Source: a virus. From it: a DNA stretch of 63,935 nucleotides. The notes under the pieces were generated by a model. That model had not been told where the DNA came from and did no database searches. It worked only from the letters and a program-made list of their open reading frames with translations. The number at the start of each line of letters is the position of its first letter. The stretch's first letter is position 1. Positions 59,322 to 63,935 of the stretch are shown here, piece after piece. The DNA is taken from positions 1 through 63,935 of the IMG/VR virus record IMGVR_UViG_3300027974_000038; one strand, given 5' to 3'. The position numbers were made by a program, and so were the translations under genes.

Positions 59322-60143
59322 ATGACCGTAAACTATCTCAATAATCGTGATCTCTTAGAGGAAATTCACAGAAGTAAAAATTCCTATAGCGTATACGCTA
59401 GTCCAGAATATCATCAGTATGATATTATTCTTCCCAGCTTGGAGAAAATTAATATTAGAACCACAGCCGAAGCCAAACGCAATCGTGCCAAACGTATTGG
59501 TGACGAAAACTACTCAAGAAGAAAAGCCTCAGGCGAAAAAATCAAAATGGCCGACTGCGAAATTGATTATAAAAAAATTCCAAAGATTGATTTGGTGTTT
59601 AGGATTATGACTTATGAACATATTCCCGTAAATAAAACACGTAAGAAAAGTCAAAAAACTGAAGCTGACGGCAGAGACAAAGTAAACTTTCCTCCATTCC
59701 AACATTGGAAGTTTGACGAAAATGACGAACTAATTTGTGTGGGCAAAAGTCATTGGAAAGGCCCATTAGACAAAGGTCGATTCAGTAAAGATCACGGACA
59801 GATTTCAAATAACCTTGCCCGTATGTATATCAAACTGTGTGAACGCTATGCTACCCGAGGCAATGTCAGAGGATATACCTATAATGATGAAATGCGAGCA
59901 CAGGCCATACTGCAATTAACTCAAATTGGCTTGCAATTTAATGAGTCAAAAAGTAATAATCCCTTTGCATACTTTACCGCCGCAGTGACCAACAGTTTTG
60001 TACGCATTATTAACATTGAAAAGAAAAATCAAAATATTCGAGACGATATTTTAGAAATGAATGACATGGCTCCCAGTTATACTAGAACCAGTAATGCTGA
60101 ATATTCAGCAGGACTACGTAGACATGAACGTGAGGAAGAATGA
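59322..60143 (+). CDS. 55: Late transcription sigma factor (T4 gp55-like)
   Basis: The 273-residue protein ends with the gp55 signature: DHGQISNNLARMYIKLCERY, RAQAILQLTQIGLQFNESKS, NNPFAYFTAAVTNSFVRIIN and IEKKNQNIRDDILE. These cover the sigma region 2-like core that recognises the TATAAATA late promoter. T4 gp55 is 185 residues; this one has an N-terminal Lys/Arg-rich extension (RRKASGEKIKMADC) of unknown role. It overlaps gp47 by four bases, with GAGGAAGA serving as ribosome site for gp47. Its product should recognise the late octamers listed in this annotation. Confidence 0.93.
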   Translation: MTVNYLNNRDLLEEIHRSKNSYSVYASPEYHQYDIILPSLEKINIRTTAEAKRNRAKRIGDENYSRRKASGEKIKMADCEIDYKKIPKIDLVFRIMTYEHIPVNKTRKKSQKTEADGRDKVNFPPFQHWKFDENDELICVGKSHWKGPLDKGRFSKDHGQISNNLARMYIKLCERYATRGNVRGYTYNDEMRAQAILQLTQIGLQFNESKSNNPFAYFTAAVTNSFVRIINIEKKNQNIRDDILEMNDMAPSYTRTSNAEYSAGLRRHEREEE

Positions 60144-61153
60144 CAAATCTTTTTAAACGTGTGGCCCTATTCACAGACATACACTTTGGACTTAAAAGTA
60201 ACAGCGCCACACATAATCAAGACTGTGAAGATTTTGTAGATTGGTACATTACCAAAGCAAAGAAACTAGACTGTGATGTTGGAATTTTTATGGGCGATTG
60301 GCATCATAATCGCAATAGCCTTAATATTACTACCATGGATTATAGTCTTAGGTCCTTGGAAAAACTAGGACAGGCATTTGATCAATTTTACTTTTTTCCT
60401 GGCAATCATGACTTATACTACAAAGACAAACGTGATATTCACAGCGTAGAATTTGGCAAGTATATTCCAGGAATTACCATAGTACACAAACCCATGACCG
60501 TGGGCAATGTGACCATGTGTCCTTGGCTAGTAGGTGATGAATGGAAAAGCATAGGCAAAAAGGGTGGCAAATATATCTTTGGTCACTTTGAATTACCTAG
60601 CTTTTTTATGAACGCTATGGTACAGATGCCAGATCACGGTGAGATTAAACTAGAACACTTTCAAAATTATGAACTTGGCTTTAGTGGACACTTCCACAAA
60701 CGTCAACAACAAAAGAACATGATCTATATTGGCAATGCATTCCCACACAATTATGCAGATGCTTGGGATGATGATCGTGGTATGTGCGTACTAGAATGGG
60801 GAGGGCAGCCAGAATATTATAGTTGGCCCAATCAACCCACATTTAGAACTGTCAAACTTAGCGAACTGATTGACAACGGCGCCAAGATTATCAAACCCAA
60901 ACAACATCTTAGAGTCACATTGGACATTGACATCAGCTATGAAGAAGCCAGTTTTATCAAAGAAACTTACTTAGCGGATTATGACATCAGAGAATTGACC
61001 TTGATTCCAGAAAAGCGTGAAGTAGAATTGACCAGCGACACTAATATTAAGGCATTTGAAAGTGTGGATCAGATTGTGATGAATCAATTAATCAGTGTAG
61101 AAAGCGACACTTACGACGTAAACCTTTTACTAGATATCTATAACAACTTATGA
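60140..61153 (+). CDS. 47: Recombination endonuclease subunit (T4 gp47-like, Mre11/SbcD family)
   Basis: The 337-residue protein carries the Mre11-type phosphoesterase motifs in order: FTDIHFGLKS (D13, H15), FMGDWHHNRN (D53), FFPGNHDLYY (N89, H90), IFGHFELPS and GFSGHFHKRQ. With gp46 it forms the nuclease complex that resects DNA ends for recombination and degrades host DNA. Length is equal to T4 gp47 (339). It overlaps gp46 by four bases. Confidence 0.94.
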   Translation: MTNLFKRVALFTDIHFGLKSNSATHNQDCEDFVDWYITKAKKLDCDVGIFMGDWHHNRNSLNITTMDYSLRSLEKLGQAFDQFYFFPGNHDLYYKDKRDIHSVEFGKYIPGITIVHKPMTVGNVTMCPWLVGDEWKSIGKKGGKYIFGHFELPSFFMNAMVQMPDHGEIKLEHFQNYELGFSGHFHKRQQQKNMIYIGNAFPHNYADAWDDDRGMCVLEWGGQPEYYSWPNQPTFRTVKLSELIDNGAKIIKPKQHLRVTLDIDISYEEASFIKETYLADYDIRELTLIPEKREVELTSDTNIKAFESVDQIVMNQLISVESDTYDVNLLLDIYNNL

Positions 61154-62928
61154 TTCGTATCAAAGATTTAACTGTTAAGAATTTCATGAGCGTGGGTAAT
61201 CAAACTCAGGCTGTGGATTTTTGTAAAGAACAACTGACATTGGTTCTAGGTGAAAATCTGGATCAAGGTGGCGATGACAGTGGTAGTCGAAATGGCACAG
61301 GCAAAACCACCATTGTCAATGCCTTAAGTTATGCCTTATTTGGTCAGGCTCTTACTAATATTAAGAAAGATAACCTAGTCAACAAGACCAATAATAAGAA
61401 CATGTTGGTCACACTGAATTTTGAAAAGAACGGTGTAAGCTATAAAATAGAACGTGGTCGTAGACCTAATATTTTTAGATTTTTTATCAATGGAGAGGAG
61501 CAAGACACTGACAATGTTGACGAAAGTCAAGGTGATGTCAGAGAAACTCAACGTGATTTAGACACACTTCTAGGTATGAGTCACGACATGTTCAAACATA
61601 TTGTGGCACTTAATACCTATACTGAACCATTTCTCAGTATGCGATCTGCTGATCAACGAATGATCATTGAACAATTACTTGGTGTTACTTTACTCAGTGA
61701 AAAAAGTGAAAGCTTAAAGGAACAAGTTAGACTAACCAAAGACGAAATTAATCAAGAGTCAGCTAACATTGAAGCTACTAAAAAGAGTAATGATCGTATT
61801 GAACAAAGCATTACAGGGCTAACGACCAAGCAACGAGCATGGTGTAAACAACAGAAAGATGATTGTGAAAAAGTTGCTGAAAAGATTTTAGAACTACAAA
61901 ACATTGACATCGAACATGAACTGGCTCAACATGCTCTACTAAAAAGTTATGACGAGTTGTCGGCTAAGATTCGTAGTCTCAACAAGGAAAAAGCCACATT
62001 AGAAACTGCTGTTGGTCAGGCTGAAAAGTCCGTGAACAAGTACAAGAAAGAAGTGGAACAACTTGCTGACAAATCTTGCCCTTCTTGTCAACAACAGTTA
62101 TTGGATCATAAACATGGTGAAATGACTGAGACTGCCTTGGAAAACTTCAATGAGGCTAAAGAATATTATAAAAAAACTTCAGCCAGTTTGAAAAAGATTC
62201 AAAAAGAAATCAAAGACATCGGTGATATAAACGGACGACCTGAAACATTTTACGACACCGTAGAACAGGCATTGAAACATCAAAACAATTTGACCAGTTT
62301 GGAAGAAGCATTAGTCAAACGCAGTGATGAAGTAGACCCTTATCAAGAACAGATTGACGAATTACGCAATACAGCCATACAGGAAGTTAGTTGGGATCGT
62401 GTTAACCAACTAAACAAACTAAAAGAACATCAGGAATTTTTACTTAAATTATTGACCAGCAAGGACAGTTTTATTCGTAAGAAAATTATTGATCAAAACT
62501 TGGCCTATCTCAATAATAGATTGACCTACTACTTAGACAAGATGGGACTGCCACATGTGGTTAGGTTTCAAAATGATCTCACAGTGGAAATTACACAGTT
62601 GGGTCAAGACTTGGACTTTGACAACTTGTCACGTGGCGAACGTAATAGATTAATCTTAGGTCTAAGCTGGAGTTTCCGTGATGTGTGGGAAAGTTTATAT
62701 GACAATATTAATTTATTGTTCATTGACGAACTTATTGACAACGGATTAGATGCTAGTGGAGTAGAGGGTGCGTTGGCTGTACTCAAAAAGATGGCACGTG
62801 AACGTAACAAAAATATCTACTTGATCAGTCATAAGGATGAATTGATTGGCCGTGTAAACAATGTGTTGAAGGTCATCAAAGAAAATGGCTATACTAGCTA
62901 TGCCAATGATTTGGAGATAGTTGAATGA
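61150..62928 (+). CDS. 46: Recombination endonuclease subunit (T4 gp46-like, Rad50/SbcC ATPase)
   Basis: The 592-residue protein has Walker A NGTGKTTIVN (about 48-57), Q-loop region TYTEPFLSM, two coiled-coil arms flanking a zinc hook CPSC (near 309-312), the ABC signature LSRGERNRLILGLSWSF (about 493) and Walker B with D-loop NLLFIDELIDNGLDASG (about 520-536). It is the ATPase partner of gp47. T4 gp46 is 560 residues. Stop and next ATG overlap (ATGA), so the small protein that follows is coupled. Confidence 0.95.
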   Translation: MIRIKDLTVKNFMSVGNQTQAVDFCKEQLTLVLGENLDQGGDDSGSRNGTGKTTIVNALSYALFGQALTNIKKDNLVNKTNNKNMLVTLNFEKNGVSYKIERGRRPNIFRFFINGEEQDTDNVDESQGDVRETQRDLDTLLGMSHDMFKHIVALNTYTEPFLSMRSADQRMIIEQLLGVTLLSEKSESLKEQVRLTKDEINQESANIEATKKSNDRIEQSITGLTTKQRAWCKQQKDDCEKVAEKILELQNIDIEHELAQHALLKSYDELSAKIRSLNKEKATLETAVGQAEKSVNKYKKEVEQLADKSCPSCQQQLLDHKHGEMTETALENFNEAKEYYKKTSASLKKIQKEIKDIGDINGRPETFYDTVEQALKHQNNLTSLEEALVKRSDEVDPYQEQIDELRNTAIQEVSWDRVNQLNKLKEHQEFLLKLLTSKDSFIRKKIIDQNLAYLNNRLTYYLDKMGLPHVVRFQNDLTVEITQLGQDLDFDNLSRGERNRLILGLSWSFRDVWESLYDNINLLFIDELIDNGLDASGVEGALAVLKKMARERNKNIYLISHKDELIGRVNNVLKVIKENGYTSYANDLEIVE

Positions 62929-63179: not shown

Positions 63180-63182
63180 TTG

Positions 63183-63620
63183 ATGTCATGGTATTATCAA
63201 GATCAACTAGTCACAGAAATCTCAGGAGATTATATAGGCTTTGTCTACATCATAACAAATTTAACCACAGATAAAAAATACATAGGCAAAAAACTTGCCA
63301 AGTTCGCCAAAACCACCTATAAGGTTGTTAAGCTGAAAAACGGCACAAAGAAAAGAAAAAAGATTCGAGGCAAAATAGAAAGTGACTGGCAAGAATATTA
63401 TGGCTCCAACGACGAACTCAACAAAGACGTATTAACATTAGGCAAAGAAAATTTTAGGCGCGACATACTTTACTTTTGTAAAACCAAAAGTGAATGTAGT
63501 TATATTGAGGCAAGAGAACAATTTTCAAGGCGTGTATTAGAAAGTAACGATTACTACAACGGGCATATTCAGGTCAGAGTTCACGGCAAACACATCATAG
63601 GCAAACAGTTAAACGGTTAA
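63183..63620 (+). CDS. GIY-YIG-type nuclease domain protein
   Basis: The start was placed at ATG 63183; a TTG one codon earlier is the alternative. The 145-residue protein has the GIY-YIG opening GFVYIITNLTTDKKYIGKKL (about 19-38), with the second half as YIGKK. The segment WQEYYGSNDELNKDV follows, then FRRDILYFCKTKSECSYIEA, where the Glu of SYIEA fits the catalytic metal site. The rest is basic (NGTKKRKKIRGKI). Either a free-standing homing-type nuclease or a repair enzyme of the operon. It ends directly before the structured region at 63621. Confidence 0.8.
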   Translation: MSWYYQDQLVTEISGDYIGFVYIITNLTTDKKYIGKKLAKFAKTTYKVVKLKNGTKKRKKIRGKIESDWQEYYGSNDELNKDVLTLGKENFRRDILYFCKTKSECSYIEAREQFSRRVLESNDYYNGHIQVRVHGKHIIGKQLNG

Positions 63621-63935
63621 AGCTGGCGCAGGCTAATTTCATGCGATTCTATACCTGGACATGCGTGTCACAGGGATGAAAAACTCCAGCCGTTAGGAGG
63701 ACTCAACCACTACCCGCAAGGATGAGGATAGCAAAATGCCGCTATTTGGTTGTTTGAAAAGGATTAACAGGCTAAAAGAAGGGGCTCTGATGAAAAAGAT
63801 ACAACCCCACGATAGTTAAGCAAGACTATATTTGTTTAATTATTTCCCGTCGTATAGAAGACTGGGCTCGAGGTACAGGATGACCGCCTCTGTAACGCCC
63901 TAATATAGTATCGGACTAAGCAACTCGCATAATGT
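63621..63935 (+). ncRNA. Candidate structured non-coding RNA (gene-free, many complementary arms)
   Basis: The 315 bases after the nuclease gene contain no convincing gene. Several complementary pairs are present: GCTGG/CCAGC (63622-63626 and 63686-63690) enclosing CCTGGACA/TGTC-A-CAGG (63654-63661 and 63666-63674). Next come CAACC/GGTTG (63704-63708 and 63748-63752) enclosing ATAGC/GCTAT (63728-63732 and 63741-63745). GGGG/CCCC lies at 63781-63784 and 63805-63808. An 8-bp helix ACTATATT/AATATAGT (63825-63832 and 63902-63909) encloses GGGC/GCCC (63864-63867 and 63897-63900) and GAGG/CCTC with an interleaved TACA/TGTA. GGTTGT (63748-63753) can also pair with ACAACC (63801-63806). It is markedly less AT-rich than its surroundings. 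Strand is assumed plus; the far end may be cut by the window. Confidence 0.55.

Follow-up and report, generated by a model that had tools for sequence, protein, structure and literature searches.

Locus and extent of the RNA

The window analysed here, a 63,935-nucleotide stretch of viral DNA (IMG/VR record IMGVR_UViG_3300027974_000038), ends in 315 bases that contain no gene of note. They follow a gp55-gp47-gp46 run and a segE-type GIY-YIG endonuclease gene (Table 1). The gp46 product is closest to those of the giant phages PA5oct, Phosso and Atu_ph07, with identities of about 50% or less. A first-pass annotation had described this stretch as gene-free and as an unexplained structured RNA behind a gp55-gp46-GIY-YIG operon; both descriptions were borne out, the latter by covariation in homologues (see below). 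It had further held that the sequence resembles no riboswitch or other known consensus. The Rfam search that it had suggested showed otherwise: the 5' third strongly matches RF01718, the Polynucleobacter-1 RNA, over the full length of the model, and this is the sole Rfam match in the whole 64-kb window. The exclusion of tmRNA, RNase P and SRP RNA was upheld, none of these giving an Rfam match and ARAGORN finding neither tRNA nor tmRNA.

Homologues were collected with a DNA pattern derived from the conserved P2 hairpin, which retrieved dozens of viral contigs, and with one derived from the conserved 3' end, which retrieved more than 100; all the loci found with the latter also match a 381-position profile of the RNA, here called class I. 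This profile is matched by 184 phage contigs, mostly at full length, and these homologues put the size of the class I RNA at about 390 nt. Its start precedes 63621 and lies inside the last codons of the segE gene. The copy in the window is cut by the contig end, its conserved 3' end extending about 55-60 nt past 63935. The originally proposed interval, 63621-63935, is thus within the RNA and falls short of it on both sides.

RF01718, an orphan motif, dates from 2010, when it was assigned to Burkholderiales and fresh water and listed as probably cis-regulatory; its table entry reads 'cis-reg: y, switch: ?' (Weinberg 2010, PMC2864571). Beyond that list, no literature naming RF01718 was found. 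The class I RNA shares hairpins P1-P6 with the Rfam model, and these published hairpins covary in 69 homologues; what the model leaves out is the 5' arm of pseudoknot a, helices P7-P11, two of the pseudoknots and the twin module at the 3' end described below. RF01718 as recorded is therefore the 5' third of the class I RNA: membership of the window RNA holds by score, and the recorded family is a fragment. In contrast to the published listing, the RNA belongs here to giant phages, and the genes downstream of it are of several families and on both strands, which leaves a leader role unsupported. Membership stands nonetheless, because the regulatory role is a label and not a defining sequence feature. 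That the region is this conserved structured RNA we regard as practically certain.

Table 1. Positions of genes and RNA elements at the right end of the window
Feature	Position	Strand	Evidence
gp55-gp47-gp46 run (59322-60143, 60140-61153, 61150-62928)	59322-62928	+	same order annotated in Atu_ph07
segE-type GIY-YIG endonuclease gene, directly upstream, overlaps RNA 5' arm	63180-63620	+	Pfam PF19835, E 1.3e-32
Class I phage RNA, portion within the window	63606-63935	+	nhmmer, positions 8-325 of 381-position profile, E 1.1e-79
Portion covered by Rfam RF01718 (Polynucleobacter-1)	63621-63755	+	105.4 bits, gathering score 37, model 1-141
Pseudoknot a, 5' arm AACGGT in last segE codons; partner 63689-63694 in P3 loop	63612-63617	+	core columns 97% paired, 3/4 pairs changed on both sides
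Hairpin P1, 63627-63630 / 63642-63645	63627-63645	+	98.8% paired, 5/5 consensus pairs changed on both sides
Hairpin P2, CCTGGACA / TGTC-A-CAGG	63654-63674	+	93.9% paired; also in predicted fold
Hairpin P3, CTCC 63684-63687 / GGAG 63696-63699, pseudoknot a partner in loop	63684-63699	+	97.1% paired
P4, CAACCA 63704-63709 / TGGTTG 63747-63752	63704-63752	+	100% paired, 4/6 pairs changed on both sides
P5, 63714-63715 / 63720-63721, and P6, 63727-63732 / 63741-63746	within P4	+	
Hairpin P7, GGGG 63781-63784 / CCCC 63805-63808	63781-63808	+	87.6% paired, 4/4 pairs changed on both sides
Hairpin P8, 13 bp, 63811-63823 / 63832-63844, loop GACTATAT	63811-63844	+	93.8% paired, 12/13 pairs changed on both sides
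Pseudoknot b, P8 loop ACTATAT 63825-63831 / ATATAGT 63903-63909	63825-63909	+	98.1% paired, 6/6 counted pairs changed on both sides
Pseudoknot c, GTCGT 63849-63853 / ATGAC 63880-63884 in P10 loop	63849-63884	+	95.9% paired, 3/5 pairs changed on both sides
P9, GGGC 63864-63867 / GCCC 63897-63900	63864-63900	+	99.3% paired
P10, GAGGT 63870-63874 / GCCTC 63886-63890	within P9	+	98.3% paired
First twin motif, ACTC-GCATAAT-G	63923-63934	+	

Covariation and the class I fold

Covariation was measured in 105 non-redundant sequences by a G-test with average-product correction against a phylogenetic null (30 simulations), and the structure was scored on 69 of these, aligned separately. Eleven column pairs exceed all 30 simulations; nine are Watson-Crick pairs and the other two correspond to the coupling of pyrimidines 136 and 148 and to the coupling of the twin cores, both discussed below. 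The class I structure comprises 78 pairs, 55 of which have changed on both sides. Its cells are paired in 95.0% of cases, against 80.8% in shuffled alignments and 32-47% when the partners are slid, and none of 500 shuffles did as well on any of five measures; the structure being derived from largely the same sequences, the slid control is biased in its favour and it is the size of the gap that persuades. Helices P1 to P11 are supported, and a 3' UUCG hairpin more weakly. Three pseudoknots complete the fold, joining the 5' arm to the P3 loop, the P8 loop to 63902-63909, and 63849-63853 to the P10 loop. Within the class I pairs, G-U combinations occupy 427 cells and A-C combinations only 59; therefore the plus strand is the RNA. 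Single-sequence folding energy is no better than that of shuffles (z = 0.10 for the window, 0.44 for its relative L103), so that the proof of structure is covariation and not stability. Chance folding is ruled out by the covariation and the slid controls, though energy alone shows nothing.

The covariation analysis of homologous phage contigs had also been proposed in the first-pass annotation, and the arms listed there mostly covary: P1, P2, P3, P4, P6, P7, P8, P9 and P10 are among them. Their supposedly simple nested order did not survive, given the three pseudoknots. The 8-bp long-range helix ACTATATT (63825-63832) / AATATAGT (63902-63909) does covary; it is a pseudoknot of the P8 loop with downstream RNA and not the closing helix it had been taken for. 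GAGG/CCTC, seen as half of a possible pseudoknot, is P10 and does participate in one, with the GTCGT/ATGAC pair as the true crossing partner in place of TACA/TGTA, which is not conserved (most homologues have TACC). A switch between two partners of GGTTGT had been envisaged as well; the second partner, ACAACC at 63801, is confined to the subgroup to which the window belongs, which leaves the switch without support. A riboswitch is likewise not supported, the RNA being no leader of one related gene class and having no two mutually exclusive conserved pairings. The TAAGCAA repeat is probably fortuitous: even the close relative L103 (TTAGGCAA) has not kept it.

The two pyrimidines beside P5 (columns 136 and 148; window 63713 and 63723) are always unlike, U/C or C/U, with 14 of 14 changes shared; they possibly mark one A-U and one A-C pair swapping places. 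The first bases of GAAG at 63857-63860 and of an NAAG found after P11 in homologues tend to agree, and to complement the CTTN of P11. This correlation (columns 268/355/369) is strong statistically (E about 0.1) and imperfect in the sequences, and might reflect an alternative pairing. In the RNA of L098, the 5' part is like the window's type and the 3' part like that of L079, when compared with L103 and L079, as if the two had recombined inside the RNA. A 21-nt partial match to the cow-rumen-2 RNA (RF02947) at P10, sharing ACAGGATGACC, is most likely due to chance (15 bits against a cut-off of 66, E 3.8); it is absent in the L083 scan.

Genomic context, a second RNA class and matched twin cores

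Phages distantly related to PA5oct and other giant phages carry the class I RNA 3' of gp55-gp47-gp46-segE. Of the 160 RNA loci for which an upstream gene was called, 157 have a segE homologue in that place. Conversely, protein searches blind to the RNA found it downstream of gp46 in 132 of 135 loci with room for it, and downstream of SegE in 135 of 142. It is retained where other genes separate it from segE (L098, L060) and is present in a 33-kb fragment that has gp46 and is without segE (L113). Contigs bearing the RNA reach 364 kb, with one copy each in all eight records with a match. The class I RNA belongs to a clade of giant T4-like phages and is kept by nearly every member. A blastn search of 50,697 phage records yielded no cultured carrier, and the plasmids searched none either; PA5oct, Phosso and Atu_ph07 have no RF01718 by covariance model, and no RNA was seen 3' of the SegE homologues of Melnitz-3, V45v66 or C48C1. 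Two pattern matches in bacterial genome contigs were dismissed as chance, being without the RNA. RF01718 was also absent from 369 genomes of the class of a Haliea MAG, a weak result since the control gave no match either. In Phosso (PV764938.1; L266:11861-11990), an unannotated 1-kb gap has a sub-threshold match to the EGFOA RNA (RF02955; 29 bits against 37.7, E 0.0046).

The genes that follow the RNA belong to several families and may lie on either strand; in most loci the next gene shares the RNA's strand at a distance of 80-140 nt, and in 17 it has the opposite orientation. Further hairpins occur between the RNA and the next gene, and the gap often contains its own TATAAATA motif, which we liken to the T4 late promoter consensus. 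In many loci (e.g. L002, L008, L180), a motif of this kind precedes the next gene, which often encodes a protein starting like MK(I/V)xE(I/L)I, a start that may resemble the capsid-targeting leaders of T4 internal proteins.

All seven segE loci found without the class I RNA carry another structured RNA directly after segE, starting AAGGTTGGYGGGCCAG and here called class II. It has no Rfam match, only two chance-level lines appearing up to E = 10. A further scan identified many more contigs, and 124 fetched loci match a 407-position class II profile; L338, L316 and L280 are examples of the location directly after segE, together with about 120 further loci. The class II fold also covaries, with 97.0% of cells paired and both sides changed in 25 of its 55 counted pairs. 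Like the class I fold, it has a pseudoknot whose 5' arm is at the segE stop, and there is a second pseudoknot. Among the fetched segE loci, whose contigs overlap, 367 have class I, 114 class II and 8 neither, and 14 are too short. In one contig (L457:225-672, minus strand), the RNA is a chimera whose 5' half is of class II and whose 3' half resembles class I.

The two classes share their 3' end, which reads ACTC-N7-G, a hairpin, then TGACTGAA(A)CAATCT-N7. In the window, the second copy of the motif (ATCT-GCATAAT) falls past the end and is seen in L103. The N7 core varies among phages (AGATAAT, GGATAAT, GCATAAT, GGATGAT, ACATGAA, ACATAAT, ACAGAAA and others), and yet the two cores of one RNA are identical in 347 of the 351 tails with both copies found (260/263 in class I, 87/88 in class II). 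The search behind these counts took the best match among candidate positions and so favours identity; in an alignment made without such choice the cores agree at the key column in 104 of 105 sequences. Their flanks, CTC and TCT, do not converge. At the R position each copy has changed 20 times, 18 of these changes being on the same branch, where 2.6 shared changes are expected and 9 was the maximum in 5000 draws; the class I tree used for this count was built without the twin-core columns. No other column of the RNA alignment tracks these changes, no complementary partner for the cores was found within the RNA or in its flanks, and the rest of the fetched loci shows no excess of the core sequences. 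In L457 the twin segments have diverged and are complementary instead of identical (CTAGTTT / AAACTAG). Gene conversion would have to act on seven bases between flanks that differ, which is unlikely. The simplest reading of the twin cores would be that selection keeps them alike because both make the same contact with a single partner in trans. To our knowledge, an RNA module with twin cores matched in this manner is without precedent.

Possible modes of action

We put at about even the chances that this conserved RNA of some 390 nt acts in trans, by a free-standing mechanism with a bivalent 3' site. It would derive from the end of the operon transcript, directly or by processing; its 5' body would serve as a replaceable scaffold and its 3' twin motif as a bivalent site, making two identical contacts with one trans partner, which may be a phage protein dimer or an RNA. 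A possible refinement, advanced more tentatively, divides the phage RNA into an exchangeable body (class I, class II or the L457 chimera) and a constant 3' module in which one motif occurs twice in tandem, the two cores matching each other and no fixed sequence. Within this two-part reading, cores that remain identical in lock-step without base pairing would point to one trans partner contacted twice.

The trans-acting reading has to be weighed against several others. We find it rather doubtful that the RNA is a cis-acting 3' UTR element, its compact fold and the following hairpins shielding the gp46-segE message from 3' exonucleases and separating it from the next gene. Such an element would always close the same run of genes, as this one does, fixed directly after segE with its 5' arm inside the segE stop region and more hairpins before the next gene. 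It would hardly be expected to stay when genes intervene after segE (L098, L060) or to be present without segE (L113), and a plain stability or terminator element has no need for about 390 nt, three covarying pseudoknots and twin cores that track each other. The same-strand position of the next gene, 80-140 nt away in most loci, and the 'probably cis-regulatory' mark given to Polynucleobacter-1 in the 2010 table (PMC2864571) would fit a riboswitch-like 5' leader. This we consider unlikely in view of the several families of next genes, the 17 on the opposite strand, and the TATAAATA motif that the gap often has of its own.

Two remaining proposals appear much less probable still. The two direct repeats lie on either side of a hairpin and change in step with each other, as they might in a DNA-level element (an origin, recombination or packaging site) where repeats rather than RNA matter. 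The strong strand asymmetry of G-U over A-C and the long-range pseudoknots are instead signs of RNA, and the fetched loci have no further copies of the repeats; such an element is accordingly most improbable. The adjacency of a GIY-YIG gene to a pseudoknotted RNA, and a resemblance to group I introns suggested in the first-pass annotation, evoke a self-splicing or self-cleaving mobile RNA spread by the nuclease. This idea has the least to recommend it: there is no Rfam group I or ribozyme match up to E = 10, no gene is split on either side, the RNA lies between complete genes at a fixed place instead of at varied insertion sites, and L113 has it without segE.

Some known systems offer parallels. 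GOLLD and ROOL are large, ornate phage and prophage RNAs with several pseudoknots that are not tied to one downstream gene (PMC12286853). The class I RNA would resemble them in manner of working only: it is a large, ornate, pseudoknotted phage RNA, but is shorter (about 390 nt), has no sequence relation to them and is not near tRNA genes in the loci checked; homo-oligomeric RNA-only assembly is a feature of GOLLD and ROOL themselves. Their Rfam models are not among the matches up to E = 10. In OMEGA/HEARO-type RNAs, a structured RNA overlaps the 3' end of a nuclease gene. The class I RNA may be likened to these in its overlap with segE, but the nuclease is of the GIY-YIG type, there is no variable guide segment, and the RNA also occurs in L113, where segE is missing.

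An orphan motif of 2010 now has its true extent, its owner and its fold, those of an RNA of about 390 nt in a clade of giant phages, and a second, unrecorded RNA class occupies the same slot. On the class I tree, the twin cores of the module common to both have changed together at about 20 separate points, a pattern that base pairing and ordinary conservation fail to explain.
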